Shown in pieces: positions 11,777-53,629 of a stretch of 64,000 nucleotides of DNA. The stretch is from the NCBI RefSeq assembly GCF_963675165.1, contig NC_087378.1:7332273-7396272 (forward strand), read 5' to 3'. How positions within the stretch are numbered: position 1 is the first letter of the stretch; every line of letters begins with the position of its first letter. The DNA is from Halichondria panicea. Lineage: Eukaryota; Porifera; Demospongiae; Suberitida; Halichondriidae. Under the pieces are notes generated by a model. It searched no databases, had not been told where the DNA came from, and worked only from the letters and a program-made list of their open reading frames with translations. Both the position numbers and the translations under genes were made by a program.

Positions 11777-14327
11777 ATGATGATGATGAAGATATCCTGT
11801 CTTTCAGTACTCTCTCTGCAGCTATTCTTTGCTCTATCTCTAGGTGCTCCATCTCCATTCAGCCAAGTGGAGAATACTCGTAAGCCACTTTATTAGAGTA
11901 TTTTATATATCTACTCTGAGACTTGCATGTAGTGAGTGCATGGATTACCTTTATTACAATACCTATCTCACCGAAACAATTGTATCTGCAAAAAAGTTCA
12001 CTAGAACAGATAAATTATATTCCCCTCCTTAGTTGCAGTGGCTGTATTTATAATGGTCCATTCTATGCATTCTCATTCAGTGAGTTCGTATATGCTTTAT
12101 ATAATTATGCATGAGCACAAATTATTAGTCTTCGTGTAAAATTTTATGTGCTCATCTTCTCTTTTCAGTCTTGCTCTCAGGGACAGCCTCAACTACACTA
12201 ATTTGTCGCTTTTTTGGAGGGAGTTCCAACACAATCAAGTGGCAGCGTGATGGACAAGAGATCTCTGTGGATAATTTGAAGTATCGATCGTTGTATAACA
12301 CAAGATCTAGACTGGAGATCAAGAACATCTCCTCGAGTGATGAAGGAGTGTACAGTTGCTCATATGAACGGGATGGTGTAAGAAGCAAATTTGATATTGT
12401 TTACATCTACGTTTTAGGTGAGTAACTATATATAATTATAATTATTGGGTTTTGAATGCGATTGGCACTGTACAAAGCCTGTTGCTTTTCTAACTATGCG
12501 AATTGCATGCAATGCATGGGAAATTGCATGCGCATGGTCACTCTTTGCGTGTCTTTCGATTGAGAGTTTTCGCAATTCACAATCGAAAGAACCTACGATC
12601 TTATTGGTATGGTGGGCTATACTCCCAAGTATACAAGAAAAGCGTAATGCATAAATTATGTTATGCAGTGAAAGTATAATTAATGCAATAAACTCGCTCG
12701 TTGTAATTTGCAGGTGCTGCACAGTTTTTCTCTGCTAATACTACCACAATTGATGTGTGTCGTGGAGAGGACGCAGCACTGGACACTAGAGTCATGTACA
12801 CTGGAGCTGGGCCTAGCAACTGTAACCAAACAGTCACTGTGCTACATCTGTTCAGAGTGGTCAATGGCGTCTTGGCACCGTTGGTGTATTTTTGTGGTGA
12901 TGAAGGTACCGGAAATGGCGTCCCTTGTCCTTCAACGTCAAAAGTTAGTGCTACAAGTGGAACTTACAAGTACGATCTCTCTTTGAGCCTCAAGAACCTT
13001 ACGATTAAAGATGGTGGACGATATCAAGCTCGTGTAGAATTACTTCGTCCTGGGGTTAGCAGCAGATTGTATATTAGGAAGGAGTTCATCATTCAAGTGT
13101 ATGGTAAGTGCTTTCCCTTCCATTCAGAATACATAATACGTTTTTCCGGTCTTGCTTTTTTAAGACATGTAACGTAAATAGTCACAAGACACTCCATAAT
13201 GTGTAGACATGTGTTACTACAATAGTGGGTTGTAGAAAAATTTCCCTACACTTTTTTGACCCTTTTACACTATTTTTATGGGCTGTGTTATAATGGTTGC
13301 AATTGCAGAACCAATTGAGGTGAATGTGTGGAGAGTGGAAAATTCTCTTCACTGCCGAGTACCACTCAATAATATGGATTTCAAATTATTGAGTTTGAAC
13401 TGGCAGAACTCAAAAGGAGAAGGCCTCTCTTCGGATGGCAATGTGCAACTGATCACAGGAGTCAACTCGAATGAAATCTCCTTAACTGCCGAGTTTGAGA
13501 CACTCTTTGATGGTAACTATTCGTGTGTTGTTACTGTGAGCTTATCCAGAAGCCCTGGGGTCAACAAAACTGTCATATCTATTCTGACAGTCAAGAGTGA
13601 GTTGAAAATTACTTCGAAACTGATTGCTAACTGTCTATTTTGCATATTAATTAAGGAATGTGCAGTATAAATTATGGATAGCAAACAATTTGTGTCTGTG
13701 GTTGTGACTCGTGCATATACTCTGTTTCAGGTGGTGTCACTGGCGGAGAAAATGAAACCTCCAGTATATTTCAGATAACTATCGGCCCTGTATCATCAGT
13801 GGAATGCTCAATATGGGTAAGTTTACATGACTTTGTGCAGATCATTCTCTGTAGATGCATGGCATTGCATGGAGCGTCCACATTGAGTTGAAATAACTGA
13901 AAATAGGGCAGTAAAAAAGTTCTTTTTCCATTAGAAAGGCTGTCCTTTTATTCAGAAGTACGGTCTTTGTAGAGAGGTGTCTATATATATTTTCAGAAGA
14001 AAGTATTCATTGCAGTTTTTCTTACAGTATGATGCAGACAAGTCTGCTGCCATGGAGGCAACCATCAGAAGGGGCATCGCAATCTCAGTCTCACAACATT
14101 GCAACTGTGAAGTAACTGCCGAGGACTTTGCAACTGGCCGGCTCAGTTGTAATGGTGACTGGCTCATCTACAGAAGCTCTGTGCAGAGCATAGGGAGAGA
14201 GGAAGTACTTCTTTCTGGGATTGATGCGTGGACTACTGTCAGAGATGGTGTACCAAGCATTGCCCTGGGCATTTTTGATCTGCAAGTAAACACTACATGC
14301 AGTGGAAGCAGACTAATAACTTGCTAG
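11777..14327 (+). CDS. Secreted Ig-type protein
   Basis: Six exons: 11777-11879, 12169-12417, 12714-13103, 13309-13596, 13731-13816 and 14028-14327; 471 residues. Exon 1 is a signal peptide after four consecutive ATG codons. Exon 2 is an Ig domain (LICRF...IKWQRDG...SSDEGVYSCSY). Exon 3 carries an unusual V-like domain with the signature ALDTRVMY...NCNQ...VYFCGD, shared with the minus-strand receptors at 36364-38255 and 40883-42709. Exon 4 is another Ig-like domain (LHCRV, LNWQNS, DGNYSCVV). Exons 5-6 (EATIRRGIAISVSQHCNC... ALGIFDLQVNTTC) could be an SEA-like fold, but I cannot confirm it. No membrane segment precedes the stop; a hydrophobic stretch at about 14490-14570 could belong to an alternative last exon. 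Function unknown; recognition or adhesion is plausible. Confidence 0.75.
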
Positions 14328-14615
14328 TTTTGATTATTAATTTTAGTGAATTTTAGGCCAACTTCATGATATTCCTGACTTCTTGAATTCATTTTTTTGT
14401 AACACAAAATTAATTATCATTGATGAATCATTTGATCAACCAAGTTCATGGACTGTGATTTGTGGTTTCTTACATGCAAGCTGATTGGGTTTTTGGGCCT
14501 CTTAATTTCTATGACAACAAAGATATTCATGATAACAGCAGTCGTTTACTATATCTATATGGTTTTATCCAAGCAAAAGCTAGCTAGGTGTATAGCCAGA
14601 GAAGGTGGAGATAAA

Positions 14616-31727: not shown

Positions 31728-34700
31728 ATGGACAGGCCAGGTTTCTTAGTGAATCAGCATCGCTACATACAAACTGAAGGTGAGACTTATACACACAGCT
31801 GCTGTGATAAGATTGCATTTAATACTGGGGATAACTCCAGGGAAACACCTTTGTCAAGTAATATGACAACATGCATTCAATCATAGGTGGTACCCCAACA
31901 TCAGTCAAGCCTACACTGATTGCACGCAGCCCCTACAAGTATCTTGGAGATGTGGAGAGAGATATGGACAGATACAGTTCAAAGAAACCGGCCGCACAGG
32001 CTCAACCACCTGGACACCACTCAAAATCAGTTAACCCCCGAGGGCCTCATTACAGCGGCACACACAGTCAACATGGCTCGTCTTCAAGTACCCACTCCTC
32101 TCTCTCAGACTCCAGTTCGGGGTACAGTTGTCAAATGGAGAATGGCTCGCAACCACTTCGGCAAGAAGACTATCGGTTAACAAATCAAGGACAATATGGC
32201 CACCAGTACGCTGCAGGGCGTCCTGGAGACCCTGGTTACTATCAGCACTCAGATCTAAGGTACGTTGGATCTACAAGACAGCAGTACACCGCTCAATACC
32301 CGGGAAGAACAACGTCTAATTACGAGAAATTTGGACCCACCAGTTATCACGAGCAGCGGAGGGACTATGAGCATCGGCAACCTTACCACCCCCAATACAG
32401 GCATATTTCACGACAACATGGACCCCTCGTGAAAGCTCATTCCGAAGAGACTTTCAGACAAGAAAGAACTATTGATAGTGAGAGAGGATTCTCGTCTTTG
32501 GGTGATCCACCGCCACCACCGGTACAGACACCAGTATACAGGCAAGAGCACCCTCCTATGGGGCAGCCACTTATGACACGGTACACCTACCAAACAGAGC
32601 ACCCAGGACCGTACAGAGAACTGTCTCCAACTTCAACCCAGTACAGTTACAGTACATCTACTACTGCTTATTCGTCTGGCGTGAACAGAACAGACATACT
32701 CTCGGAGAAAATTGAAGGCATGAGAATTCATCTAGTTGACGGTAATATTGAGATTTTGAAGCAGCCTATAGACCAAGTCGTCGATTTAAATGAGAGCGTG
32801 GTGTTCACGTGTGATGCTCGTGTAGTTGATTGTCAAGAAGACCCGAATCTATTGTGGTTTAAAGATCAAGAGCCGTTGATTGGTGAGATCGATTCAACGT
32901 ATGTTATCACAGAGACGACTGAGAAAGATGCTGGTGTGTATCACTGCCTTGTCTCGCACCCTCTGAACCCAACTCAACAGAAAGAGTCCACTTCGGTCAC
33001 TCTCACCATCAACACAGGGGGTTAGTCCACCTCATTGTCATAGTCGGGTAATAGTTTTGCTCCCCTGCAGAGTTGTACTTTAGATGTACTTACGTTAGTG
33101 TAGTGTACTCTTTTCCTACAACAACCTTCTTTTCCTACAACGCTTAGTTTTCAATTTCCCTATCCGTGTTTACTTATTACTCAGCGAACAAGATTTTGTT
33201 ACTTAGTTGTCATATAACCTCCTCCCCTCTCCCCCCAGTCCCTAAGACCACTCCGCCATTGGTCAGTCTCCCGGAGATAGTGAAGCAGCCACTGGGTATA
33301 CTAGCAGCTGTTGTGGGAGAGCCTCTGGAGGTGGCCATACAAGCCAGCGGAGACAATCCACTATCGTGAGTTGAGCCTCTTTAAATGTTTCGTAGCAGCG
33401 TTAAAATTAAGTGCTTGTTTATTCTATAATTATAGTGTTGTGAGAAAGTGTATGTACAAGCTTTCAATCAGAAACTTCCCTTGAGTCACATGTATAACTT
33501 TAACTTGATTCATTAGTCATTAGTGTATACAATTTCCTTTGTATGGTAGATTTGTTGTTGAAGTATACACTTGTTAAATTTGTTGGACAGTACCATCGAG
33601 TACTCATTGAAATTAATTTTATAGGTTTTACTTTTGTTATGATTGTGCATTATAACTTAAGCACTTTAACTGAGCCTAGAGTGTCCCAATTTCAGTATGA
33701 ATAAACTGTATTCGTTTATAGCGTGATGTTTTAATCGTCGCCAATCTTCAGTTTTACTTCATCCAGATGGCTTTTGATGTATTTTCCTCTACTTTACTAC
33801 TTCTCCCCTCAGGTACCAGTGGTACAGAAACTCACAACCCCTGAACTTTGCCCAGTCCTCTATTCTCCGGTTCCCTGCAGCCTCCATTACAGACAGTGGT
33901 GACTACTGCTGTCGGGTGGCCAACGATCATGGCAGCATTCTCTCCAAGGTCTTCACTCTGGAGGTGACTAGGGTTCGAGGTGAGAGACATGTTCCATACT
34001 AGCTGGCACAATAATGAAACTCCTCACTAGTTAATGTGCTATTTCTGTATACTGTTACCACGGGGCAAAGCAGAAAGGAGTAGAACCTTTAGGGAGGACT
34101 AAGTTGGTTTTGAGGCGTAGGTGTAGGTGGGATATACCGTGTAGCTGGTAATTTCCGGGGGGCAAATTATTCGTGGTTTTCGTGGTTGAACACTGGACCA
34201 CGAATGAAGCAACCTTGACTACCTTTACCTGCAGTGCAAGCAACCATGAAAATAAGATCCACAAACTGACTAAATATTGCTCAACCACGAATATTTTGCC
34301 CCCCCCCCCTCCGAAAGTTACCCGCTATACGGTAGTAGTCTGCCAGTGCAGTGGGTTTGTCTGTCTGTGTATTTTAAATCTGCTCACGTGGCTGCCAAAT
34401 CGCTGGGTATGATTATATGCTCCTGTTTTCCTTTTAATAATTTCTTAATAATAATAATTTAGCTACTATTGCTGTTTCTTGCACGTTTTCACCCTCCTTG
34501 CTGTGTCTGTTTAAATGCAGCTGCTGTTGTGGCTGCTGACTTGAGTGATTCGTACCTGCAAAGAGCCAGTGTGGCCATTGCCCAACAAGTTAGGGGCATT
34601 GAAGAACTAGCTCTCACTCTTGGAGTGCGAATACCTCACCCAACTACCTATCAAAGTTTAGCAGAGCAGGTGTTGCACTTGCTCGTGATCTGGAGGGACA

Positions 34701-35734
34701 CTAAAAATGGAACTAAGAAAAGACTTGTTAGTGCCCTAAAACAACTTCGCATTGTGTTGCAAGATTCAGAAAGAAGCCAGGGATATGGCCGGTCAAAGGA
34801 TTTAGAACGAAGCCAGGGGTATGGCCGGTCAAAGGATTTAGAAATAAGCCAGGGGTATGGCCGGTCAAAGGATTCAGATAGAAGCCAGGGGTTTGAACGT
34901 TCAAAGACAGGTGTGTAATATGATTAGGTATGCGTGTGGGGAGTTCACCCCATTGGTAAGAATTCCACTCCCGGCTGTTTTGTTAGTTTTCAATATCCTG
35001 TGTGTACACTAGGCTTACATGTACTGTAGTGAGTCAGGTATGTAGACTACGGCGCTATAGAAGCCTGACATTGATTTGGGTAAGCCCTTTTGTATCCTCT
35101 TTCCTACACGCGACAATTAATAATGGGAATATTAATTTGTTTCCTTACAAAATGTCGGTTGCTCTCTGCACAGCTAAACTACAGTTTTTGAAGCAGCCAC
35201 AGAGTGCAAAGGTCATATATGGACAATCGGTCAGTCTCCATGTTGCCGCTTCTCCAGTAACACCCTCAACAAAGTATCAGTGGTATTTAAACGGGAATCC
35301 TCTGGTCGGACAAACCTCTTCTCATTTCACCATCTCTTCAGTTGTTGACTCGGATGTCGGAGACTACGTGTGTGTTGTTGTCAGTGGCAGCGACACTCGA
35401 ATTCAGTCAGAACCAGCTGTTATAGAATTGACGGAGATCTCTCACCAGAGGAGAGGGGTACCTGCCCCTGCCCCCCAGAGCCAAGTTTTCGAGCCCCCCA
35501 AACGCTATCTTATCACTCGTGGAGCTCCTGCTGACAGGGAAGCAGATGTTTTGTTGTTGGAGCCTAGGCAACCGCCGGTCACTAAAGCAGGTATCAATGC
35601 CCAAGATGTGTGCTATTTGCATTATTTTACTATTTCTATATACATTCTTTGGTTGTGTGGCGAATATTTAAGGGGGTTAGTGATCATCACTTGATATTAA
35701 TTTTGTGCAGCCATTAAATCTTCTATTATATAAG

Positions 35735-35794
<60 letters not shown>

Positions 35795-36070
35795 GCTCCA
35801 CCCAGTATTGTCATTGACGAGCACCCAGCCTCGGTGGAGATTGAGCCAGGCGACCCTTTGACCCTCCGCTGCCGAGCCTCCAGTAGTCATGGCGACATCA
35901 AGTACAGCTGGTACTTCAACGGACTATTGATCGAAGAGGAACAATCGGACTATGTGCTTAACTTTTTCACTGACGAAGATGAGGGCTATTACACATGCAA
36001 AGTGAGCAATCAGTACGGATCAGTTACCTCCAACACGGCTCAAGTCAAAGCTAAACTAGACTCAGACTAA
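31728..36070 (+). CDS. Soluble Ig / death-domain protein
   Basis: Seven exons: 31728-31779, 31887-33020, 33239-33365, 33813-33979, 34521-34910, 35174-35590, 35793-36070; 854 residues. There is no signal peptide or membrane segment, so a cytoplasmic location is likely. Residues 18 to about 290 are Ser/Tyr/Gln/Pro-rich. Ig-like domain 1 (about 295-395: VVFTCDARV...LLWFKDQEP...DAGVYHCLV) is followed by Ig 2 (exons 3-4: YQWYRNSQP, SGDYCCRVAN), a helical death-domain-like region (about 500-580: ASVAIAQQVRGIEELALTLG, LAEQVLHLLVIWRDT), four 12-residue repeats (SQGYGRSKDLER type), Ig 3 (exon 6) and Ig 4 (exon 7: LRCRASS, YSWYFNG, EGYYTCKVSN). Death domain plus Ig recalls MALT1, but there is no caspase-like domain and the order differs. 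The role is unknown; an adaptor or scaffold is plausible. Confidence 0.78.
34135..34334. mobile_element. MITE family A, copy 4 (intron of Ig/death-domain gene)
   Basis: Begins TACCGTGTAGCTGGTAATTT and ends GTTACCCGCTATACGGTA. Interior inverted words around TTCGTGG. About 200 bp, like the other copies. Confidence 0.65.
34770..34905 (+). repeat. 36-bp coding tandem repeat
   Basis: Four in-frame copies of a 36-bp unit (AGCCAGGGGTATGGCCGGTC...) inside exon 5 of the Ig/death-domain gene, encoding 12-residue repeats. DNA-level near-identity of the first three suggests recent expansion; the last is diverged (GGGTTTGAACGTTC). Confidence 0.9.
35736..35791. repeat. (CA)n tract forming the 3' splice-site region
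   Basis: About 28 CA units run directly into the acceptor AG of the last exon of the Ig/death-domain gene, replacing the usual pyrimidine tract. Confidence 0.9.
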
Positions 36071-36363: not shown

Positions 36364-38255
36364 CTAAACTTTAGCAGATGTTTTAGATTCTAAAATTAAT
36401 TGTAGGGCAAAATTTTTCTCAAAGTCATTGGTGTACACAGATTCACGATTGGGTCCACCTACAGGGTTGGTGTTTTGAGGTATTTCCATTTTTATAGTCT
36501 CTTCTTTTTTGTTCTCTATGTCTTTAGAATCTGTCCTGTGTCTTTGGTATTGTAAGACAATAGCGATAGCTACAACAACAGCGGCTACTATCAGCACGAT
36601 CACGACCACTGCTCCGACAGCACCTCCGACAGCACCTCCAACAGCACCTCCAGATACAGGTACATTAGGATTCAGTGCCCCCACCATGCCTGGAGTACAA
36701 ACACGAGCATGTGTAAAACAAAATTATTATAGCAGATGGGGTCGTTTAAACAAGCATACCGTTATAAAGTAATCCTGGAAATGCATCAATAATTAGTTTG
36801 GATAATCTGACACAAATTACGATAGCTACTGATTAAGCGCAAGGGTATTGAATTGGTAATGCGATAACAGTCGTGTGGGTATAATAATTATATACCTAGA
36901 GAACTCAAAGTAGTCCCATCGTTGGTTGTCATAGTATTGTTGGTTGTAACTGGAAATGTAGTGGCTGGAAATGTAGTGGGTGGAGGAGGCATTGTAGTGA
37001 GATCTGTATATAGGGTAATTGTCATGGGATTATCATTGAAATTGTACTTCTTATTATATTAGACAATGGGCATCACATGTTGAAATTAACACAAACTCAC
37101 ATAAGTACAAGGAAGTAACTATCTATTCCCACTTAGGATGTGGGGGATACAACAGCTGTCGGTGTGTGTGCGTACGTGTGTGTGTGTGTATAACTCACCT
37201 TGATGAACTGTCACACTAAATATCTTCCAAAAAGACCTAAAATCGCTTCGCCTCGGTTGCCTCACTTCACTTGCCACATAAATGAGCTGAGCACTGTCAC
37301 TTGCATTTAGTTGTAGCTCAACTTTAAAGTCGTAAAATAAAAAGCTTTGTCGATTAACAACAACTCCACTTTTATTAGGACAATTGCTGTTAGGTGTGTC
37401 ATCACAATTATACAGTAGGTTGGTTTGAGTTCCCCGATGTATTGTAAATATGTTGATGTCTTCTCTGCAGTTGCAACACCCGCCTGGAGAGTACATGATT
37501 CTAGTATCCAGGGTAACTCGTCCCTCTGTGACATTCAATTCTTCGTAGCAGCTGTTGCTACTTAATACCACACCCGGGCTGTACGTGAATGGAAATGGTG
37601 CGTCGCAAGTAGCAAAACGAGCCAAACCTGAAGTAGAGTACAATTTAGTAAACTATATACACGAAGATAAGATAGGGCGATTATCATTGAACAACTTACC
37701 ACTGACTATCACACAAGATATTGGTAACATGATCCCTTCAGTATTGGAGCAAGAGTAACGTCCCTCATCACTGGACTTAATACTTTCTATTCGCAGAGTT
37801 CGATCGTTGACCATTGTATAATTACCACCATCAAGGACAATAGCCTCTCCGATATCTTCACCACACGAATGTTTAAACACTGTGAAAGTCGGTGCAGTAA
37901 CAGAAGGGGGACATTCCAATTCAACAGAATCTCCAACCAGATGCTCTAAAGGTGGACAGACATAGTAGTATAAGTGTGGGCATGCACGTTTTGATCACTT
38001 TTATTAGAGTTTTCCAACCAGATACATGTATGACTACTCAGTTATTCGATCATCAAAATTTAAATTCTTAGATAAATAAATAATATGCTTACCATTTATT
38101 TGTTTTCCCAGGCAATTATTCAACAGACTGGTGCAGCCTGGGTTAATAGGTCCCCCAAGCCTGTCAGGATCATAGCATTGCAATTGCTGGCTACAGACGA
38201 GTTGAAGCACACACACAGACAGGTAGAGAACCCCTAACGATAGTCTTCGCAGCAT
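36364..38255 (-). CDS. Ig-type transmembrane receptor 1
   Basis: Five exons on the minus strand: 38255-38093, 37945-37700, 37627-37199, 37003-36896, 36689-36364; 423 residues, all introns phase 1. Order: signal peptide (MLRRLSLGVLYLSVCVLQLV, cleavage probably after CS); a short cysteine segment (CYDPDRLGGPINPGC); an Ig-like domain (LECPPSV...SSDEGRYSCSN); a novel cysteine-containing domain (about 137-279) with TLDTRIMYSPGGCCNC and LLYNCDD; a Thr/Pro stalk (exon 4); Gly-Ala repeats (GGAVGGAVGGAV); a membrane helix (AVVVIVLIVAAVVVAIAIVL); and a tail of about 60 residues with ESVYTNDFEKNF. It looks like a type I cell-surface receptor. Ligand and function are unknown. It has a decayed duplicate at 46388-49017 and a diverged relative at 40883-42709. 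Confidence 0.82.
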
Positions 38256-40882
38256 CTGAGAGAAGTTACATGTGTACAACACTTGTATCATAAATACATC
38301 GAATGTATTGATTTATAGAAATGATCATGCTTAGTGTTTATGTTCAAGAGTGTTGATGTTACTCTATTGGTTGCAATACCCCATGGGCCAAATAATAAAA
38401 TTATTGATATTAAACTGCAACTATTAGGGTAGAGCCCTCGTTAGTTAGTGGCTTCACATGAATTAACCCACACAAGAGAGGGCCTCTCCCAATGAATGTG
38501 AGGTGAGGGGAAATAATGTGTGAAACAAACAAGTCTTGAATATCACCAAAGTGGATTAGAGGGATTTCCCAACAGAAAGGAAATGAAATTCAATTTATAT
38601 CTATCTTGGGCTCCCTGAAAGATCCCTGGTTAGGTTAGTCCTCCCCCGTGTGTGTGGGCTGCTACACTATTGAGACACCCATCATGTAGTCAGTACAATA
38701 GGAGATTATACTGATACATGTGTACAGGTACACAGGAACATATTAAGGGCCTGAGGGGACAGATTGTTATCATTCTAGTAGCAACAGTGCATAATGGGTT
38801 ACCTATAAGTAAACGTAAACCCTAACACACTTTTTCCTATTACGAAATCTCGCTGTAAGAATAGGATAGCGCCTAGTGGCTGGGATAGGGGATTTTCAAT
38901 AAGAAAACTGTGAACGATAAAAGTAAACAGTACAACAGCTAGTGTAAGAATGTGAGAACAGGAAGAGCATTAATTTATGATTATGAAAGGTCACATTTAA
39001 TATTAATGACCATTCTTTAAGCATGTCTTCTGGTACTTATTCAGATAGCACAGAATAAGACATATTTAGCTAAAATTATACAGCAACAGTTTATACATGC
39101 TCTAGCTAACTAGAGAGCTATGTGGTTTTAATACATCACCACATAGATCTAATTTAATATAAACAAGCAGCAGAAAATTCCACTCACTGTTGATATATAA
39201 TGATGTGTCCTCCTAGGAGCCAGGTACCGGATACTGCAGTGGAGGTTAGCTGTTCTGTTCTAGCACACACTGTACATACATAAAATGTGACCTATCTTTT
39301 ATTAGCTAACTGAGGTACATCCCCGGCCTCTGCAATACAAGGTACGCCCATTAGCTCATTAATGGCCGCCCTCAAAAAATGCTTGCTCGCTCTACAAAAT
39401 CGGCCTGGGAACAGTGTAGTCTGGCCTAGCCTCTACACAGGCTCTCCTTTTTCTGTTCTTTATCACAATCGTTCAATAAGATAAAATACTGTATTAATTG
39501 TTCAATGAGATAAAATACGGTATTAATTGGAGGAATAAAGAAAGAAATAGACGTAAAGTTAGGAAAAAGGAGAGCCTGTATCGGGAAGTCGCGTGAGGGT
39601 AGAAGGGTGGTAGAAGGGTGAAAATGAGCGTGGGCATGCTGAGCTAGAGATGTTGGACTGCCCACGCAGAGATCTATGACTAATAAAACTTTGCCTGCAG
39701 CAAGCTGGACATGGACTTGGAACTGGAAGTTTGCAAGCACTAGAGCTAGCTATACCTTAGGCTTAGCTAGATGATCTACTAGTCTAGATTGTGTGTTCAG
39801 ATTCTATCCTATTCTATCAGACTATCACCTTTTCTTGTGTCTTTCTACATGCTATAGTCTATACAGGTTAGATCAAGAATAGCTTAGTCATCATTATCAT
39901 ATAGCAGGTAGCTACTGCCACCAGAGCTGGCCACGCTGGTTCTCGATATAAATATATATGTCTTTCTATGATTTATGGATGAACAGTGACAACAGCAAGA
40001 AAAAGTAAGGCCTGGGAACGAGGCTAGTCTGGCCCAGAGGAGGATGGACACGAAGCCAAAAAGTTAATAATGACGTAGTCTTTATTAAAATAATTAAAAT
40101 ACTTGAACCTTGAACCTACTTTATCAAGCTCTTTTCTAGCCAGCAGGCCACCTTTTCATTCTGGAAACAAGAGTATACTTAGATGATGATAATTATAGCT
40201 GAGCTATACATTCACTCTATAGCACGGTAGCTCCTACTTTATAAAGGTCAGAGGTCAGTTTGACATGACAGAACTACGACCTTTGTGAGAGGTCACCCCT
40301 TTTAGGCACTGCACGATTTCTCTGGAGGGGCGCAGTAGCTAAAAGTTAACTAATTTGCAGCAGCAATAACATGAAGGGGCTACTTTATCACAAGAATCAG
40401 GGCGCGATGTGCAGTCAAACTTGCAAATTTACTGCACAAAACATAAGCTCACGTGATGATTATTAGTGACCTTTTGACCCTGTCCACCCTCCTCTGGTCT
40501 GGCCCCAGACCACTCCCTTGCACGTGATCTGACATGTGCCGGGAGGAGTCTGGCCTCGAGACTAGGAACAGTCCCAGACCACTCCCTTGCACGTGATCTG
40601 ACATGTGCCCGGGAGGAGTCTGGCCTCGAGACTAGGAACAGTGTATTTGTGTTCCCTGCGGCCTGGGATCGAGGTATCTATAATTATTTTGCTGGTAATA
40701 ATATTACCAGCAAAATAACAGACAGGAGCAGATTACAGAACTGCTCCTGGGGCGTATAAAGTATATAGGCATATAATTATGGTATTATATTAATTGCCTT
40801 ATTGCTCACAGAAAAATCTAAGCAGCACAAAGCGCATGCAAATGCATGCAACACAACAGGATAAAAATATTGATTTTATGCA
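38256..40882. other. Upstream region of receptor 1, partly duplicated
   Basis: No supported gene. About 38256-39300 is repeated at about 49018-49660 upstream of the receptor pseudogene (shared words: GGGTAGAGCCCTCGTTA-type, GGCCTCTCCCAATGAATGTG, TTAGCTGTTCTGTTCTAGCA). The remainder is AT-rich spacer, holding the 75-bp tandem repeat at about 40506. Confidence 0.65.
40506..40641. repeat. Tandem repeat, two units of about 75 bp
   Basis: Two almost identical units from CAGACCACTCCCTTGCACGT to GAGACTAGGAACAGT. The unit also contains GGCCTCGAGACTAGG, reminiscent of the palindromic foldback ends elsewhere in the window. Confidence 0.85.
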
Positions 40883-41344
40883 CTACGCAGCAATAGACAC
40901 AGATTCAAGAGTTGTTGACAGTTCATGAGGAGCAGCTTGTCCTTTAAAACTTGAGAAATTTTTCGACCCTCTCCTGTCATCAATCTCTGCATAAATCGAA
41001 TCGTCGTTTTTGTTTTTGAATGGACTTTTGATACCGGTGGTATTATGTTTTCTTCTTCCGTACTGGCAATAAACAAATACACTTCCAATCATGACTAGTA
41101 GTGCTAGTAGACAAACAGCTGATGTCACCACCCCAACCACAAGTGCTATAAAAGAGAGATAGGCACTTTACTAAATTTGGTATTAAACTTAAGGGGATAT
41201 TCAAAATTGAGACTGTAAAATGTACCCATCTAGTAACGTGGCTGGGTATTAAATAATTATACAAATTTACCGGTAATTGTACTAGGCTCAGCGGGTGTGT
41301 TTACTGTTGATAGCTCAGTAGTAGAGGACGTGGGGTCTGTGTCT

Positions 41345-41439
<95 letters not shown>

Positions 41440-42709
41440 ATGTGTGTGGTGTGTATGGCAAAAACTCACCAGGTGGGTCCGAGATGAGCACAGTAAAATC
41501 TTTGTTGTATAAATTTGTGCTACTAGGGCTCATCGGCACAATTCCAGCCACAACGAGTTCAAATTTACTCTCGTTGACTTCCATACACAGTGGTGGTATT
41601 GTAAGAGTAAAATTAAAAGGATTTCCAATTCGTATAAATTCTCCAGATATATTACGACAAGTCCTGTTTTGATCACAACTATACCACCGTTGAAGATTCA
41701 AGTTATTAAAAGCATTGACGAAATTAAATCTAGCAATTTCCTGTTTACATTTGCACACACTGGTCGAGTCAAACCTGAGTCTAGTATTGAACGTCACCGG
41801 GTCACCTCTGAATACTTCAACCGTTTCAACACAAGATGAGCCCTCTTCTGTCACCATACACGACTCGAATTCAACAGGATCTGAAACGAAAAAAACAGTT
41901 GATAATTAATTGCTACCTAGCCAGATACTATATACACTGTGATGTAGTCAATTTCAATGTCCGATGCATCTACATTATAATACATATATCAAAGTATTAT
42001 TCTGGACGGATTTTGGACTACAAACAAACCCTAAAATACATTTAGTTATTAGCTTACTTATCACTAGCACACAGAATGTCATCGCCTCTGGTCCAGTACA
42101 TCGGTACAGCCCTTCATCTTGAGGCTGCAAGTTGATGATTCGGAGTGTATTACCACTGACCGTATATTTACTGCTGTCACCAGTGTTAAACGTTATGAAA
42201 GTTGCGCTCATATCCGTAGCTGCGCTCACATCCGTAGCTAACTTTCTCTGAGTTAGAGTCTCTCCAGGAGGACAACGCAGATCGACGTCAGAAGCAACAC
42301 CTCGCTCCTCCACTTGCATTATGTAGGGGAAAACATCAAGTTCAAGCATGCAAACTATGTACTTGCACACCGGAATCAATCTAGAGACAATTAAAGCCAC
42401 AAAGTAACATGTGAAAAATGCTCAGCATACCAGGTTTCGTGTGTGGGGAAGGGGAACTTTGATATACAGGTGATTAATATATTCATCCAAAGAGGTATTC
42501 TAGGAAAATATGAATTTTGTAAATGTACCACTGACTAGGTAAAGAGTAAGAAACTGAATACAAACATGTTAGTAGCTATCGAGCAGCTAACCTGTAGCTT
42601 TATCACACTCAGTTTTAAATGCCTGATCAGCACAATCACAAGACTGTGCAAGTGTGCCTGCCATCCAGCACAGTAAGCAGAGCAGTCCCAAAACCTGTCT
42701 GTTGAACAT
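40883..42709 (-). CDS. Ig-type transmembrane receptor 2, with ITIM-like tail
   Basis: Five exons: 42709-42592, 42312-42058, 41880-41470, 41336-41271, 41145-40883; 370 residues, phase-1 introns as in receptor 1. Signal peptide (MFNRQVLGLLCLLCWMAGTL), a short Cys segment (SCDCADQ), an Ig-like domain (DLRCPPGE...QPQDEGLYRCTG), the family's novel domain (TFNTRLRFDSTSVCKCKQE, WYSCDQN), a short Ser/Thr stalk (TSSTTELSTVNTP), a membrane helix (LVVGVVTSAVCLLALLVMIG) and a tail of about 60 residues. The tail contains SIYAEI (Tyr about 335), which fits the ITIM consensus [S/I/V/L]xYxx[I/V/L] that recruits SH2 phosphatases in animal inhibitory receptors. Whether it works that way here is inference. The exon 4 acceptor directly follows a long CA tract on the coding strand. 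Confidence 0.8.
41338..41460. repeat. (GT)n tract; (CA)n at a 3' splice site on the coding strand
   Basis: Near-continuous GT on the plus strand. On the minus (coding) strand it is CA repeat ending CACAGACACAG at the acceptor of receptor 2 exon 4. Confidence 0.9.
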
Positions 42710-43346
42710 CGTGACCTGTGTGAACAACAACACAGCTCTAATTATCGCAGCATAGTTCACAACAATCACTTGTGATGTCCATTATCTAACACTGTATGGA
42801 CAGCCCCAGGAGCACATGATTACCATAACAACCGTGCACTATGAAAATAGTTAGAGTTACTGTTTATTGTCGAACACTACACAATGAACCAAAGAAATGA
42901 AAGTATTTGTGTTACAAGCAGGAATTATGCACATTGTGAAATAATTTGCAACTGTACTATACAGTCAAATTGAACGAAAGGTTTCTATTTACTGTGTGTG
43001 TGTGTGTGTGTGTGACGAAATGCTACGCAATACAATTAATACAATTGCCCTGTACAGGAAGTACGAACAGACATAAACAAATATTAAACACACTCATGAC
43101 ATGATCATTTCAACCACAAGCATGCCAAAGTCATTACTCTGACATACTAACAGGCACCACTGGGAATATTGGTCTACAATACTTCAGGAGAGGAGTTGTA
43201 TTAATAGGTGCACACTCCCACTGAGTCAATACCTCTAGCTATGTAAAGATACAGCAAGTCCGACATAGCTTGGCACTCACATGTAATTGTCTGGCTTAAA
43301 CTGATTAACGTATAAAAAAACATTATGTGGTGCTGCTATAAAATAA
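42710..43346. other. Spacer upstream of receptor 2
   Basis: AT-rich, with a short GT tract at about 42998. I see no gene; it probably contains the receptor 2 promoter. Confidence 0.4.
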
Positions 43347-43680
43347 TACCATAAGACCTCGATTTAAGGCGACACTTTAAATAATTACAAAGCCAGAGGT
43401 CGGTTCTTTTAGAGGTTGAAAATTATGTTGAAGTCCTGGTGTCGCATATTAGTCTACTTGCCTCGATTTTAGGCTGCTTAAATATGTATTTTCTAGTGGG
43501 CTAGAATTGAGGTTAGGGTGTGGCTACATTTACCTCCATTTAGGACGCGACATTAAAAATTAAATTAATTGTCAACACAGCAGCTGTCGCTACTTTTAGA
43601 GGTCAGAAAATTGCCTTGTCCATGGAGTCTCGAGGGTGTCGTATATTTGGAGGGTTGCCTTAAATTGAAGTCTTACGGTA
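43347..43680. mobile_element. MITE family B
   Basis: Inverted ends TACCATAAGACCTCGATTTA and the inverse of TACCGTAAGACTTCAATTTA, about 330 bp apart. Interior words TTTTAGAGGT and TTAGG-CGACA are repeated in opposite directions. No coding capacity. Confidence 0.65.
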
Positions 43681-44094
43681 ATTATGGGCGGAAATGTCCA
43701 AGTGGCACTTTAAATTCAGACGATTTATGCGATACACTTGTATCTATACTCTTCTCAAAACAAAGCTCCCTAACAGGCTTCAAAAATACATTGACACTTT
43801 TCTGGAGAAGGTATAAACAAACAAACACTCAATCTACTGAACCATAGCTAGTGTGCAACTCCATTGTAAATGGTTCATCTACAATTCACCGGTAGTGTAG
43901 TGTGGGGTTGTGCACATCCTATAACACCTCTACTCAACCATTAACAGATATAATTCCAAGAGAACTATTCCCATCATTTTCACACCTTTCTCTGATTTAT
44001 GGTGACCCCCTCTCACATTGTAGCTAGACACACAACTCACTTTGCTCAGCCTGTCTCTTGAGTACGTACACACGTCGTTCTTCGATTCTTCATA

Positions 44095-44332
44095 TACCGT
44101 ATAGCGCGAAATTTTCGAGGCACTTATATTTCGTGGATTGGCCTCTAAAAACCATTTCGTTGCACAATGTTCGCGGAATAGCTGCTTACCGGAAGCCACG
44201 CCTTTAAATCTTTGCATGATAGCAGGTAATTCTAATTAAAGAACACTTTTTGTGGACTTAATTTTCGTGTAGAATTCTAACCCACGAAATCCGCGAAAAT
44301 TAAGCCCCTCGAAAATTTCGCGCTATACGGTA
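44095..44332. mobile_element. MITE family A, copy 5
   Basis: Begins TACCGTATAGCGCGAAATTT and ends AAATTTCGCGCTATACGGTA: the outer 20 bp are a perfect inverse complement, with further inversion inside (TTTTCGAGGCACTTA / TTAAGCCCCTCGAAAA). This is the best-preserved copy of the family. Confidence 0.8.
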
Positions 44333-44569
44333 CAAGTTATAGTTATACCACACCCATACATGTAATATCTAGCCACCGGCTGGGAAATACCCATACAGAC
44401 AAATGATATTCACTGACACGGCATTCTTGGAACCACAATAAGAGTTCTTGTTAGAACTTTAATGCTATAGCTAGCTATAGGTGCGTAGCTATATTAAATA
44501 GCTAGATAATGCCTGCACTACTGCATACTCAAATCCTGCCAGCTGCATCTCCTCATGCAAAGATTGTGT

Positions 44570-45570
44570 TAATTACTACAGCTGTAAAACACACACACAG
44601 TTAGCTTTACAGTGAGGCATTCATGTTTAACCGCTATTTTAATCGATTGGCAAAAATTAAACAGAATTAAAACAGAACATTAAAATATCGGCATGATAAT
44701 TATAGGGTAAGTATAGGACAATCATTCGACATCATTTTTTCATAGTGAAAGTTAATAGTCTGTTGTAGTCATTTCTTCCCTGAGGCCATATGCACTGTTC
44801 TCAGTTGTTAGAGGGTCTACCTGACGGAAGGTTGACATAGCGATGAGGGGATTCAGTGGGCACAATGTCTGCCAGAAAGAAAACCGTAAAACAGTTTTAG
44901 TGATATAGCATCCAAACATAATAATTATTATTTTAGATCATATTTTACAGTAGAGGTAAGGTGAACAATCCAAACAATACGATGGACGAAAACTAAATAG
45001 AGTAATAGTGTACATGCAGTCTTCCAAGACTCCGGGAAGTGCACTTCATCACACTCTATATGGATCCTATGGGATTAATTTAACAGAAAGACTTATAGCA
45101 ATCTCTGATTCTGTATGTACATTTAAGTCAGTGAAGATGGCATGTAACAGAGACAATAAACATATAGATAAGAAAAGACTAAACTTACTAACTGTGATCG
45201 TCAATGACAGTGACGATGGGAGGTAAACATGATTATAATATACTCACTGCATTCTTACCGGACATTGGAGTGAACGAGTTGATGACAGGGGCAGGAGAAT
45301 TGTCCCCCTCAATAACGAAACGATCAGTGGAGCACTCTTGCATCACCTCACAACTATACCTCCACCCACACCACCCACATGCGAACTCTGACCCTATTCT
45401 GGCCGCAATACATTCTGAACATCCACTGGCCAAATCACGACAATCATACAGCGTCACTGCATGTGTATTTTATGGTGTACATGTAATGAATGACAAAATT
45501 ATACTACAAAAAATTTAGTTCATAGAATACCCAAATGTATCTAGATTAAGGGTGCTGTGAGCAAACGGCA
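44570..45570 (-). pseudogene. Collapsed pseudogene copy of the receptor tyrosine kinase
   Basis: A one-kilobase mosaic of pieces that lie in the same order across about 10 kb of the kinase gene. 44570-44880 matches its last exon and flank (52240-52550). About 45010-45060 matches intron sequence near 53720-53770. About 45120-45180 matches 57181-57230. 45190-45240 matches 60665-60715. 45241-45480 matches the PSI exon (61122-61345). 45525-45570 matches about 62013-62085. The kinase and membrane exons are missing. The tail exon has one extra base, so it reads HRYVNLPSGRPSNN then stops. The PSI exon (45456-45259) is still open but reads GDNSPAP where the intact gene has GDKCPAP, losing a PSI cysteine. 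Confidence 0.8.
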
Positions 45571-46387
45571 GGTTAACACGAAACAGAAAAACAGACGGGA
45601 ACAGAAAAAGCAAACAGCCCGACCTTGAGAGTTGAGAATGATGGGTTTAATGGTATACCAACCCTCCCCATTTCATCTATTGCATTTAAAGTCAAGTATA
45701 CACTGAACATTGGGGCCATGCCGATATAAATTTATGACTTACATGGACTGCATGTCGCATGGTGGATCGACGTAACAGTACTTGGTTTGGCTTTACTATA
45801 GATACCGTAGACGCGCGCGTTATATTATAAGCGGAGGCACCTATAATCCCACAGGAACGACATGTCAGCGCTTAAGAGCGCCTAATAGAACCTTTTAGTG
45901 TGCGCCATTTAGTGAAACGCAAAACTTGTGCGCTCAATGCCATTAACAATGGCTCTTTTGCAGCTGCTGAGCTTACCTTCACTTTTGACAGTATGTTAGC
46001 AGACACAACATATATAAATCAGTTTGGAGACCTGCTGTAGGATAGACTACTGCTAGAGCTGATTACTAAATAAAGAGTAATTCAGTAAGGATCAAGACAC
46101 AGTTGGACCTAATTAAACTTAACAATGAATGGCGCCTAATAGCGCGCGCATATACGATTTTGTATATATCATACTGTGCTTGAGGGAGGCCTCATGCATG
46201 TTGTCCTTTTTCCTGCATGTGCTAGCAGGAGTTAATTCATACCGATTAGCTGATGAATGCATGGGGATGGTGGGAATGGGAAACCTCAAATCCTCTAGCA
46301 TTATGGTTCTAGCAAATTATGCTCAGGCATTAGTATAGATATCAGTGTGCATGTGTGCGTGTGTGTGTTTGCGTGTTTACAACTCAC
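45571..46387. other. Spacer between two pseudogenes
   Basis: No supported gene. It contains a GT-rich stretch (about 46344-46375). I found no membrane-helix or stalk exon here that could complete the Ig-receptor pseudogene. Confidence 0.5.
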
Positions 46388-47366
46388 CTTGATTGACTGT
46401 CACACTAAATATCTTCCAGAAATACCTAAAATCGTTTCGCCCGGTTGCCTCAATTCACTTGCCACATAAATGAGCTGAGCACTGTCACTTGCATTTAGTT
46501 GTAGCTCAACTTTAAAGTCATAAAATAAAGAGCTTTGTCAATTCACAACAACTCCATTTTTATTAGGACAATCGCTGTTGATCATCACAATTATACAGTA
46601 TGGAGTTGATTGGGGTTTCCAAGCGTATTGTAAATATGTTGATGTCTTCTCTGCAGTTGCAACACCCACCTGGAGAGTACATGATTCTAGTATCCAGGGT
46701 AACTCGTCCCTCTGTGACATTTATTTCTTCGTAGCAGCTGTTGCTACGTGATACCACACCCGGGCTGTACGTGAATGGATTTGGTGGGTCACAAGTAGCA
46801 AAACGAGCCAAACCTGAAGTAGAGTACAATTTAGTAAACTATGGATGAATGAATGAGGTATTAGATTATCATTGAACAACACTGTTTAATTGTATTTCTA
46901 TATACTGCTTACCGCTGACTACCACACAAGATATTGGTAACACATTCCCTTCAGCATTGGAGCAAGTGTACAATCCCTCATCACCAGGCTGGACATTGTT
47001 TATTCGCAGAGTTTGGTTGTTGATAATTACCACCATCAGGGTCAATAGCCTCTCCGTTGGGATCTCCATCACACGAATGTTTGAATACTCTGAAAGTCAG
47101 TGCAGCAGCAGAAAGATCACATTGCAATACAACAGAATCTTCAACCATGCAGATACTCTAAAGAGGAATCAAATGCAAAATTTAATGAGTGTTGCAAGCT
47201 GCGCTGTGCTAATGCCTCTCGCCATGTTATGCTTTCGCTCTAGAGTATTATAGTAGGGAGAATAAGTTTTTTCTATAATATTAAAATTTACATTTGAATT
47301 TCATGCAAAGAAAGAGTGTTATAATCATATCTATCTGACTTGTGTGCATGCATCTATTGTATATGC

Positions 47367-48009
47367 AGGGGCGTAGGCAGGAATTTGAGGAAGGGGGGGC
47401 TGAGCTGTTAGGGCGCCAGAAACTACTTCGCGCGGAGCGCCGAAATGTTTCGTCTACCGGAAGCCACACCCCTAATTAATGACTCATTTCCGGGAAGTGA
47501 ACTCTATATCCTGCCAACAATCAGCTAGCTAGTAATAATTATAGCTATAATACTTTTAGTCTACGTGGATGACGCCTGGCAAATTCATCAACAATGTCTT
47601 CATCAGTACTCAGGCTGGCAATACTAGAGCTTGCCCTTGAGAAGTAGCGGTCCAGTTTCTGTGACATGTTGCTGCTTTCAATCAACCTTCTCAATCAACC
47701 TCTGTGGTAGATTATTAATCAGTTGCACATTGCGCATGTGCAAAGAAATAGCCACACCTTGCTTCAATTAATAATACTGCTAAAAGCTAGCTAGCTAGCC
47801 GTACGTAGCTAGCTAGCTTAGTTGCACTAAAGAATTAAAGTTACTAGTATAGTATAGCTAGCTCTTGGACATGCTGTTTGTCTGCCACTAATCTATACCA
47901 GTAATTCCCAGGCTGAAGACTCATCAGAGAAGGTGGGGCTCTTAGTGTGGTTTTTGCAGAGAAAGGGGGGGCTCCAGCCCCCAAAGCCCTCCCCCTCCCT
48001 ACGCCCCTG
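47367..48009. mobile_element. Inverted-repeat element with AGGGGCGTAGG ends
   Basis: Left end AGGGGCGTAGGCAGG, right end the inverse of AGGGGCGTAGGGAGG, about 643 bp. Sequences flanking the ends are G-rich (GGAAGGGGGGGCT / GAAAGGGGGGGCTCC), as direct copies. Such ends are common in animal DNA-transposon derivatives, but no transposase is encoded here. A 130-bp relative is at 50769-50902. Confidence 0.65.
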
Positions 48010-48413
48010 ATATGGTATCAATGAAGTATTCTGTGGCTTACCAGGACCTCAAGAAAGATGAAATTAGATCCACTGGAATAAGCTGGGTGTGTCGATCAAG
48101 TTCACAAAATAATGGCTACTAAATAGCTAGCTGCTTTAGCAGCTCTTTTCTGACTCTTGTAGCTAGCTAACTAGCGCTTTAGTGCAAGGCTAACTAATAG
48201 AAACTTTGTGCAAACAAAAGATGCTACGAAAGATTCTGAAGAGGTTGCAATAACCTTCAACGTGAGTCAATAACTTGAGAAAGAAGCTTTAGTTTGCTAA
48301 TCCACAAATCAAAATCCAAGAGAACTTGACGTGGCTAGAAGCCTATAGAAGCTGTTAGTTTTCGTCGCATTGCAACTGTTGAGCAGTTACAGCTACTCTG
48401 TCTACATAATAGT

Positions 48414-48544
48414 TAGACACTGTTTAGGAAGTTTCTACATGATTTAGAAGCCCAAAGGGCTGGTTGTAGTATCCCGAACGCAGTGAAGGTTCTACTAGCC
48501 CTGAGGACTTCTAAATCATGTGGAAACTTCCTAAACAGTGTCTA
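48414..48544. repeat. Foldback, 37-bp arms
   Basis: TAGACACTGTTTAGGAAGTT (48414) to AGAAG (48450) is the near-perfect inverse of 48508-48544. The loop contains GCCCAAAGGGCTGG. Confidence 0.8.
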
Positions 48545-48558
48545 AGCATTTTAGATCA

Positions 48559-48661
48559 TAGCCTCGATCCCAGGCCGAGTTTTCGCTTTTATAACGGTTA
48601 GGCGAACAACTGGTTCGCCTAACCGTTATAAAAGCGAAAACTCGGCCTGGGATCGAGGCTA
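48559..48661. repeat. Perfect palindrome, 49-bp arms, 5-bp loop
   Basis: Arms 48559-48607 and 48613-48661 are exact inverse complements, outer sequence TAGCCTCGATCCCAGGCCGA. TTTAGATCATAG occurs immediately on both sides, which would fit a target-site duplication. Single TCGATCCCAGGC ends occur elsewhere (about 40660). Confidence 0.9.
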
Positions 48662-49017
48662 TTTAGATCATAGCAACCATGAGTATTTAGCCAATCAGAT
48701 TTGAATGTTCTTATCTAATCTTTGCTACATGATCTTCTAAGTAAGTACATGATTAAGCCAATCAAATTGCAGTATTTATGGCAAACATGATCTAAAACTA
48801 GACACTATACTCTGAAGGGAGTATGTGGTTATAAAATCACGTATAGATGTATACCATTTATTTGTTTTCCCAGGCAATGGTTCACCAGATTGGTGCAGCC
48901 TGTGTTAATAGGTCCCCCAAGCCTGTCAGGATCATAGCATTGCAATTGCTGGCTACAGACGAGTTGAAGCACACACACAGACAGGTAGAGAACTCCTAAC
49001 GATACTCTTTGCAGCAT

Positions 49018-52409: not shown

Positions 52410-53629
52410 TTAATTGTTTGTTGTAGTAATTTCTTCCCCGAGGCCGTATGCACTGTTCTCAGTTGTTAGAGGGTCTACTGACGAAAGGTCGCCATAGTGA
52501 TGAGTGGGCGTCAGCGTGGGCACGTTGTCTGCCAGAAAGAAAACCGTAAATAGTAATGAAGTTTATTGATATAGCATCCAAACATAATTTTAGATGAAAT
52601 CAAACCATATACAGTATGCACGTACATACATAGGGGCAGATCCAGGGTCAGTTCGCTGGGTTCATAAACCACCCTAGTTTATACCCTACTAGATCTATAT
52701 TGAACTTACTGATTCGAGCAAGCTAGCTAGCTATATACTGTCAGTACAAAGTTCTCTCTGCACGAAAAGAGGGTGGGGCTGGCTACTGCTGAGTCAGCTA
52801 GTCTAGGTCAGGCACATTTTCACCATGGGTACCTAAAACTCCATTTCACACTGATTATCGATTATTGATCATAGTTAGCAGTATTACTAAACAGAAAGGT
52901 ACAGTCTTTTAGCCAATAAATTATAGCATATATACAGGAAGACCGACGCACATCGTTAAATTGTGTCTACACTTACTGAGATTGTCGCCGAGGCCATACG
53001 CACTGTTCTCAGTTGTTAGAGGGTCTACTGACAGAAGGTCGCCATAGTGATGAGGGGATTCAGTGGGCGTCAGTGTGGGCACATTGTCTGCCAGAAAGAA
53101 AACCATAATAATGTAGCATTCAAACATAATTTTAGCATACAGCATGCACGTACACAGGGGTGGATCCAGGGTCAGTTCGTTGGGTTCTACGAATCACCCT
53201 TCCAGTTAGTTCATACACAATACTAGATCTTACTGATACGAGCAAGCTAGCTATAGCTATACTGTCATGACAACACAGTACATCTTTCTGCACGAAAGAG
53301 GGTGGGGCTGGCTACTGCTGAGTCAGCTAGTCTAGGTCATCACATATTCACCATAGGCGGCTAAAACTCCTACTACAATTTATGATGAGTCTTTATGGGA
53401 TTAGATATTAATAGTTAGCAGTATACTAAACAGAAAAGTACAGTCCTTTAGCCAATGACATATACAGGAAGACCTACGCACATTAAATTGTGTCTACACT
53501 TACTGAGTTGCTCCTCTTCTAGATTGTTCCCGAGGCCATAGGCACTGTTCTCAGTTGTTAGAGGGTCACCTGACGGAATATCGTCATAGCCATGAGGGAC
53601 TTCAGTGGGCGGGGGTACGTAGTCATATT
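52410..53629 (-). repeat. Tandem exon duplication in the kinase tail
   Basis: Three exons (53629-53504, 53087-52977, 52528-52410) encode variants of [27 protein letters not shown]. The introns after them are also copies (shared TGGATCCAGGGTCAGTTCG, GAGGGTGGGGCTGGCTACTG, CTGAGTCAGCTAGTCTAGGT), so whole exon-intron units of about 0.5 kb were duplicated. All are in phase 1, so adding or skipping a unit keeps the frame. Confidence 0.88.

Follow-up and report, generated by a model that had tools for sequence, protein, structure and literature searches.

The stretch of the sponge Halichondria panicea genome analysed here (contig C2, positions 7332273-7396272; 64,000 nucleotides, hereafter the window) contains a cluster of genes whose products carry immunoglobulin (Ig) type domains. 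Genes A, B and S and one broken copy lie within the window, and a further intact gene, C, lies beyond its right end (Table 1). A, B and C encode membrane proteins and S a predicted secreted one. Each of the four possesses a membrane-distal Ig domain, which we call Ig1, followed by a second domain, D2. The spliced models of A and B are complete, with GT-AG introns that are all in phase 1 and no internal stops. These models bear out an earlier note on this DNA, which described two intact minus-strand receptors composed of a signal peptide, a short cysteine-containing segment, an Ig domain, an unfamiliar second domain, a threonine-rich stalk, a membrane helix and a short tail. Since the introns of A and B are all in phase 1, every Ig-type module occupies a symmetrical exon of its own, and the D2 exons proposed earlier for A, B and S agree exactly with the gene models. 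Gene C was located by a three-member D2 profile (A, B and S) at an expect value (E) of 0.002, among 3664 six-frame open reading frames (ORFs) drawn from the window, from the adjoining 200 kb on the right-hand side and from the search loci. Its plan is like that of A and B, with a signal peptide and two-cysteine segment, an Ig domain, D2, two threonine-rich stalk exons and a final transmembrane (TM) segment with tail, and its introns are again all in phase 1. The family reaches past the coordinates given in the earlier note.

A strong hydrophobic segment lies 3' of the ectodomain in A, B and C, with Kyte-Doolittle peaks of 3.7, 2.9 and 3.2, respectively. S also splices cleanly, with GT-AG introns of which the last is in phase 0, and on the same scale its only hydrophobic features are the signal peptide (1.9) and a low peak within D2 (1.66), a strong segment after the ectodomain being absent. 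The existence of both membrane and secreted forms, as previously proposed, is therefore upheld, with S predicted to be secreted. A possible alternative final exon of S (14481-14747, plus strand) contains a hydrophobic stretch and a tail and might give rise to a membrane form; because the in-phase joining of this exon to exon 6 was only read by eye, S is kept as secreted. Ig1 of S passes the Pfam cut-off (Ig_3, E 1.8e-13, 51.2 bits versus 30). The corresponding matches of A (Ig_3, E 9.3e-5), B (0.0096) and C (Ig_6, 6.7e-4) all fall under the cut-off, and a profile built from these same four Ig1 sequences connects A, B, C and S. The third Ig domain of S matches V-set_CD47 in Pfam (E 1.2e-4). No significant Pfam match was found for the C-terminal region of S (13731-14327). 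This region, which is possibly an undescribed domain, has weak relatives at C4:1087031 (E 0.006), next to sequence that by eye resembles FN3, and at C6:6529045 (E 0.011).

The earlier note had stated that S carries the same second domain as the receptors, and BLASTP confirms this (A with S, 1e-9; A with B, 3e-6; B with S, 6e-5; each a single comparison). Identity in D2 across the six pairs of the four genes is 16.9-28.7%. When D2 profiles were built with one member left out and run against the six-frame ORFs of the window and the 200 kb to its right, all four members were recovered (A, 1.5e-10; B, 3.1e-7; S, 3.5e-8; C, 2.2e-3), and D2 is therefore one homologous domain despite this low identity. 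In the whole genome (131.5 Mb, 39 contigs), a four-member D2 consensus gave six matches at five loci, all of them within C2:7.345-7.405 Mb, and searches with the proteins or domains of A, B, S and C yielded significant D2 matches at the cluster only. As a check on sensitivity, a consensus lacking A still matched both A (9.2e-4) and the broken copy (0.008). A consensus lacking C missed C; the count is therefore a lower bound, at least four intact genes and one broken copy, and members as remote as C would escape detection elsewhere. Several weak matches off the cluster were not accepted. One at C3:3387359 (E 2.5) is antisense to what appears by eye to be a retroelement reverse-transcriptase frame, those at C14:280324 (E 0.32) and C16:1181749 (E 7.4) are weak, and those at C17:5564206 (E 0.026) and C4:2770588 (E 0.098) are weak or involve the stalk and TM parts. 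A 432-residue S query produced 17 matches, 11 of which are off the cluster at Ig1 or the C-terminal part, with E 0.006 or worse. Pattern matches to D2 in public viral (44) and prokaryote (19) contigs included none that was related.

The broken copy is 95.1% identical to A in exon 1, 82.8% in exon 2 and 92.4% in exon 3, and it is damaged: indels disrupt the frame of exons 2 and 3, and exon 3 also contains an in-frame stop. The stalk, TM and tail of A were not found downstream of it by blastn, and tblastn of the stalk-to-tail parts of A, B and C in the same place returned a single match, to B, at E 0.78. Because its 3' half was not found, the broken copy does not display the full plan that had been attributed to it. 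Where its stalk and TM would be expected there are instead pieces that match a neighbouring TIG/kinase region (blastn; 93% over 227 bp, and others). They include a PSI-like piece at 45233-45469 (Pfam PSI, E 0.0019, under the cut-off) and one at 44773-44922 that matches sequence near 53.0 and 53.6 kb. The neighbouring region itself (52900-61500, minus strand) has TIG repeats (Pfam 6.7e-14, 59676-60095), tyrosine-kinase exons (5.1e-12, 56498-56848) and a PSI-like segment at about 61.1-61.5 kb, and is probably one receptor tyrosine kinase gene, of which the tail exon seems to be duplicated (52921-53193 and 53448-53675). The earlier description of a family of Ig-type receptors with a common second domain and a decaying member is upheld, and the family is a locally duplicated one. 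To the further suggestion of a birth-and-death family, four intact genes and one decaying copy at one locus, as a lower bound, lend weak support.

Table 1. Genes and pieces of the cluster. Positions are those of the window except for gene C, which is given in contig coordinates; aa, amino acids.
Feature	Position	Strand	Description
Gene S	11780..14327	+	470 aa, predicted secreted; splice model, hydropathy
Gene S exons	11780-11879; 12169-12417; 12714-13103; 13309-13596	+	second, Ig1; third, D2; fourth, third Ig
Gene S exons, continued	13731-13816; 14028-14327	+	C-terminal region
Gene S D2 exon	12714..13103	+	V-set-like; better-modelled representative of D2
Gene A	36364..38255	-	423 aa, five exons, splice model
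Gene A exons	38255-38093; 37945-37700; 37627-37199	-	signal peptide and Cys segment; Ig1; D2
Gene A exons, continued	37003-36896; 36689-36364	-	Thr-rich stalk; TM and tail (SVYTND)
Gene A D2 exon	37199..37627	-	divergent V-set-like; structure model weak
Gene B	40883..42709	-	374 aa, five exons, splice model
Gene B exons	42709-42592; 42312-42058; 41880-41470	-	signal peptide and Cys segment; Ig1; D2
Gene B exons, continued	41348-41271; 41145-40883	-	stalk; TM and tail (SIYAEI)
Gene B D2 exon	41470..41880	-	D2 homology searches
Pieces matching the TIG/kinase region	44773..45469	-	blastn; downstream of broken copy
Broken A-like copy	46388..49017	-	exons 48855-49017, 46913-47157, 46388-46813 (exons 1-3 only)
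Gene C	C2:7405496-7403450	-	369 aa; 7.2-9.2 kb beyond window; D2 is exon 3

Inspection of the four-member D2 alignment shows that the place of the Ig B-strand cysteine, judged by sequence pattern, is occupied by threonine in all four members and that the F-strand cysteine is likewise absent from all four. The cysteine spacing differs from the usual B/F-strand pair, as had been claimed. A canonical B-F disulfide is typical of V-set domains, though not obligatory. Two other pairs of cysteines occur in D2. Near the N-terminus both cysteines are present in A, B and C and neither in S, and a second pair, at strand C' and shortly after it, is complete in A, B and S and wholly missing from C. This co-occurrence, in four sequences, suggests that the members of each pair are disulfide partners. 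The sequence motifs listed in the earlier note fared unevenly. The TR core and YxC[D/G], whose cysteine is the C' one, are found in A, B and S but are absent from C; B has TRLRF, so that M/L is not kept at that place. The CNC/CKC/NCN stretch is present ahead of strand C, but its cysteines are not neatly paired across members.

A V-set fold for D2 is supported by prediction. The D2 of C matches the Pfam V-set profile at E 1.5e-4 (22.4 bits, under the cut-off of 26), and the weak matches of C-D2 and S-D2 are dominated by Ig. Models were used for S-D2 and A-D2; that of S-D2, with a predicted local distance difference test score (pLDDT) of 72, resembles V-set domains. Several results weigh against this assignment. 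No usable Pfam match was found for the D2 of A, B or S, hhalign produced no match between D2 and Ig1, D2 profiles searched against the PDB returned unrelated entries only, and the A-D2 model is of low confidence, with six top structural rows that are not Ig. The silence of these searches, and the non-Ig rows for A, would fit a D2 that is some other beta-sandwich or a new fold rather than Ig. We regard this as quite unlikely in view of the V-set match of C-D2, the Ig-dominated matches of C-D2 and S-D2, the S-D2 model and the confinement of the module to a single phase-1 exon. On the strength of these models and profiles, D2 is most likely a heavily diverged V-set domain and not a new fold. The earlier designation of a novel domain is accordingly not sustained, the V-set result having been obtained largely for S-D2 (by model) and C-D2 (by Pfam, under the cut-off). 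An ordinary V-set domain, named in the same note as the structure that would speak against it, was nevertheless not what was found, because none of the four intact members retains the B/F cysteines. A literature search noticed no account of the D2 domain, a weak negative, as most journals lie outside its coverage.

The nearest folds to D2, as well as weak sequence matches, are found among the vertebrate V-set receptors CAR, nectins, TIM-3, BTLA and PD-1. These proteins retain the canonical B-F cysteine pair, whereas all four D2s lack it. For S-D2 the best structural and weak sequence matches include CAR D1, nectin-4 and MPZ, and it might be argued that the family consists of plain CAR/nectin-type cell-cell adhesion molecules with no discriminating role. 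We find this doubtful, though worth serious consideration; a match in fold is not proof of function, and a D2 identity of 17-29% together with an adjoining broken copy is, in our judgement, unusual for housekeeping adhesion proteins. As a whole, the results make it probable, though well short of certain, that the cluster is a small family of divergent two-Ig recognition or adhesion receptors of the immunoglobulin superfamily (IgSF), expanded by local duplication, in which A, B and C cross the membrane once, S is the predicted secreted paralogue, one copy is broken and an Ig domain is followed by a strongly diverged V-set D2. The membrane proteins have the anatomy of a type I surface receptor, with two Ig domains, a stalk and a tyrosine in the tail.

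The tails of A, B and C have in common a tyrosine motif, S[IV]Y-x-[NE]-[DEI], with SIYGEE as its form in C. Not one of 20000 shuffles placed S[IV]Y in all three tails together (1.4, 3.2 and 2.1% per tail), a figure to be read with the knowledge that the motif was picked post hoc. The strict immunoreceptor tyrosine-based inhibitory motif (ITIM), [SIVL]xYxx[ILV], is matched by B (SIYAEI) and not by A or C, and at least one of the three tails matches it by chance in 20% of shuffles. The diversity of signalling tails suggested earlier is to be qualified, in that S[IV]Y is common to all three.

We infer roles in ligand binding, signalling and recognition for A, B, C and S. D2 has lost the canonical B-F disulfide, and the N-terminal pair and the pair around C' probably stabilise the fold instead. 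The tandem Ig ectodomain, which the threonine-rich stalk keeps clear of the membrane, would bind a ligand carried by another cell or by a particle. The one tyrosine of the tail may then be phosphorylated and recruit SH2 proteins, in the manner of an ITIM in B, and S may serve in soluble form as a ligand or a competitor. The related ectodomains of the membrane paralogues and the predicted secreted one, and duplication and loss at the locus, would also be expected of receptors by which phagocytic cells recognise microbes or symbionts, with S as an opsonin-like secreted form. However, the sequence gives no pointer to microbial ligands, and we consider this unlikely.

It was of interest to compare the family with known recognition systems. 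The Hydractinia Alr genes are clustered, of low mutual identity, confirmed as Ig folds by AlphaFold and accompanied by pseudogenes (PMC11067881), and they encode V-set-like hypervariable domains and tail motifs of immunoregulatory type (PMC3276163). Like those single-pass IgSF genes, the sponge genes are clustered and diverged, with V-set-like domains, a pseudogene and tail motifs. The sponge genes, however, number four intact and one broken, all at a single locus, and the likeness is one of plan. To our knowledge, the Alr domains are likewise without canonical cysteines. The fester co-receptor of Botryllus (FcoR) has a signal sequence, a V-type Ig domain, a TM segment and a tail with an ITIM, a hemITAM (half of an immunoreceptor tyrosine-based activation motif) or a core Yxx[ILV] (PMC12065747), features shared in outline with the sponge genes. 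It differs in its long tails and in the presence of a sushi domain and of two Ig domains of the C2 type, and the core Yxx[ILV] occurs here in the B tail only. The sponge adhesion molecule and the Ig-bearing receptor tyrosine kinase of Geodia cydonium resemble the present proteins as sponge surface proteins with Ig-like domains.

The resemblance to the Alr genes raises the idea of an allorecognition locus like the Hydractinia complex, with polymorphic V-set-like ectodomains, homophilic binding and signalling through the tail tyrosine. It is in keeping with this idea that Ig1 (exon 2) is the most diverged part between A and the broken copy. However, the nonsynonymous and synonymous divergences (dN/dS) of 0.050/0.054 in exon 1, 0.209/0.183 in exon 2 and 0.064/0.112 in exon 3 show no excess of dN in exons 1-3, and because exon 2 has elevated values of dN and dS alike, positive selection is not demonstrated. 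A single assembly is uninformative on polymorphism, and the main text of a transcriptome study of sponge grafting does not contain the terms "immunoglobulin", "Ig-like", "receptor tyrosine kinase" or "Geodia" (PMC5450542). We therefore hold an allorecognition function to be improbable. Slighter still is the prospect that an early-branching animal here possesses an allorecognition-type locus that arose in parallel to the Hydractinia Alr complex or shares ancestry with it, and whose divergent V-set receptors have moved their disulfides, bear ITIM-like tails and are accompanied by a soluble paralogue.

Elsewhere in the window, several Ig domains surround a weak Death-domain match (E 0.0025, under the cut-off) at 31862-36070 on the plus strand, an order reminiscent of MALT1 minus its caspase-like part. 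Near the ends of the window, ORFs that by eye resemble Calx-beta and EGF repeats occur at 2800-5220 (plus strand) and 63220-63516 (minus strand).

For the specialist, the points of note are the missing canonical disulfide and the common tail motif. What appears to be a V-set-type domain without its hallmark disulfide, missed by standard profiles, is present in a cluster of receptors, both membrane-bound and predicted to be secreted, in an apparently early animal. If the ectodomains proved to be neither polymorphic nor self-binding, the cluster would be an ordinary case of adhesion-type receptors that have expanded locally. If they were polymorphic or self-binding, it would offer a testable candidate for tissue recognition outside the cnidarians and tunicates.

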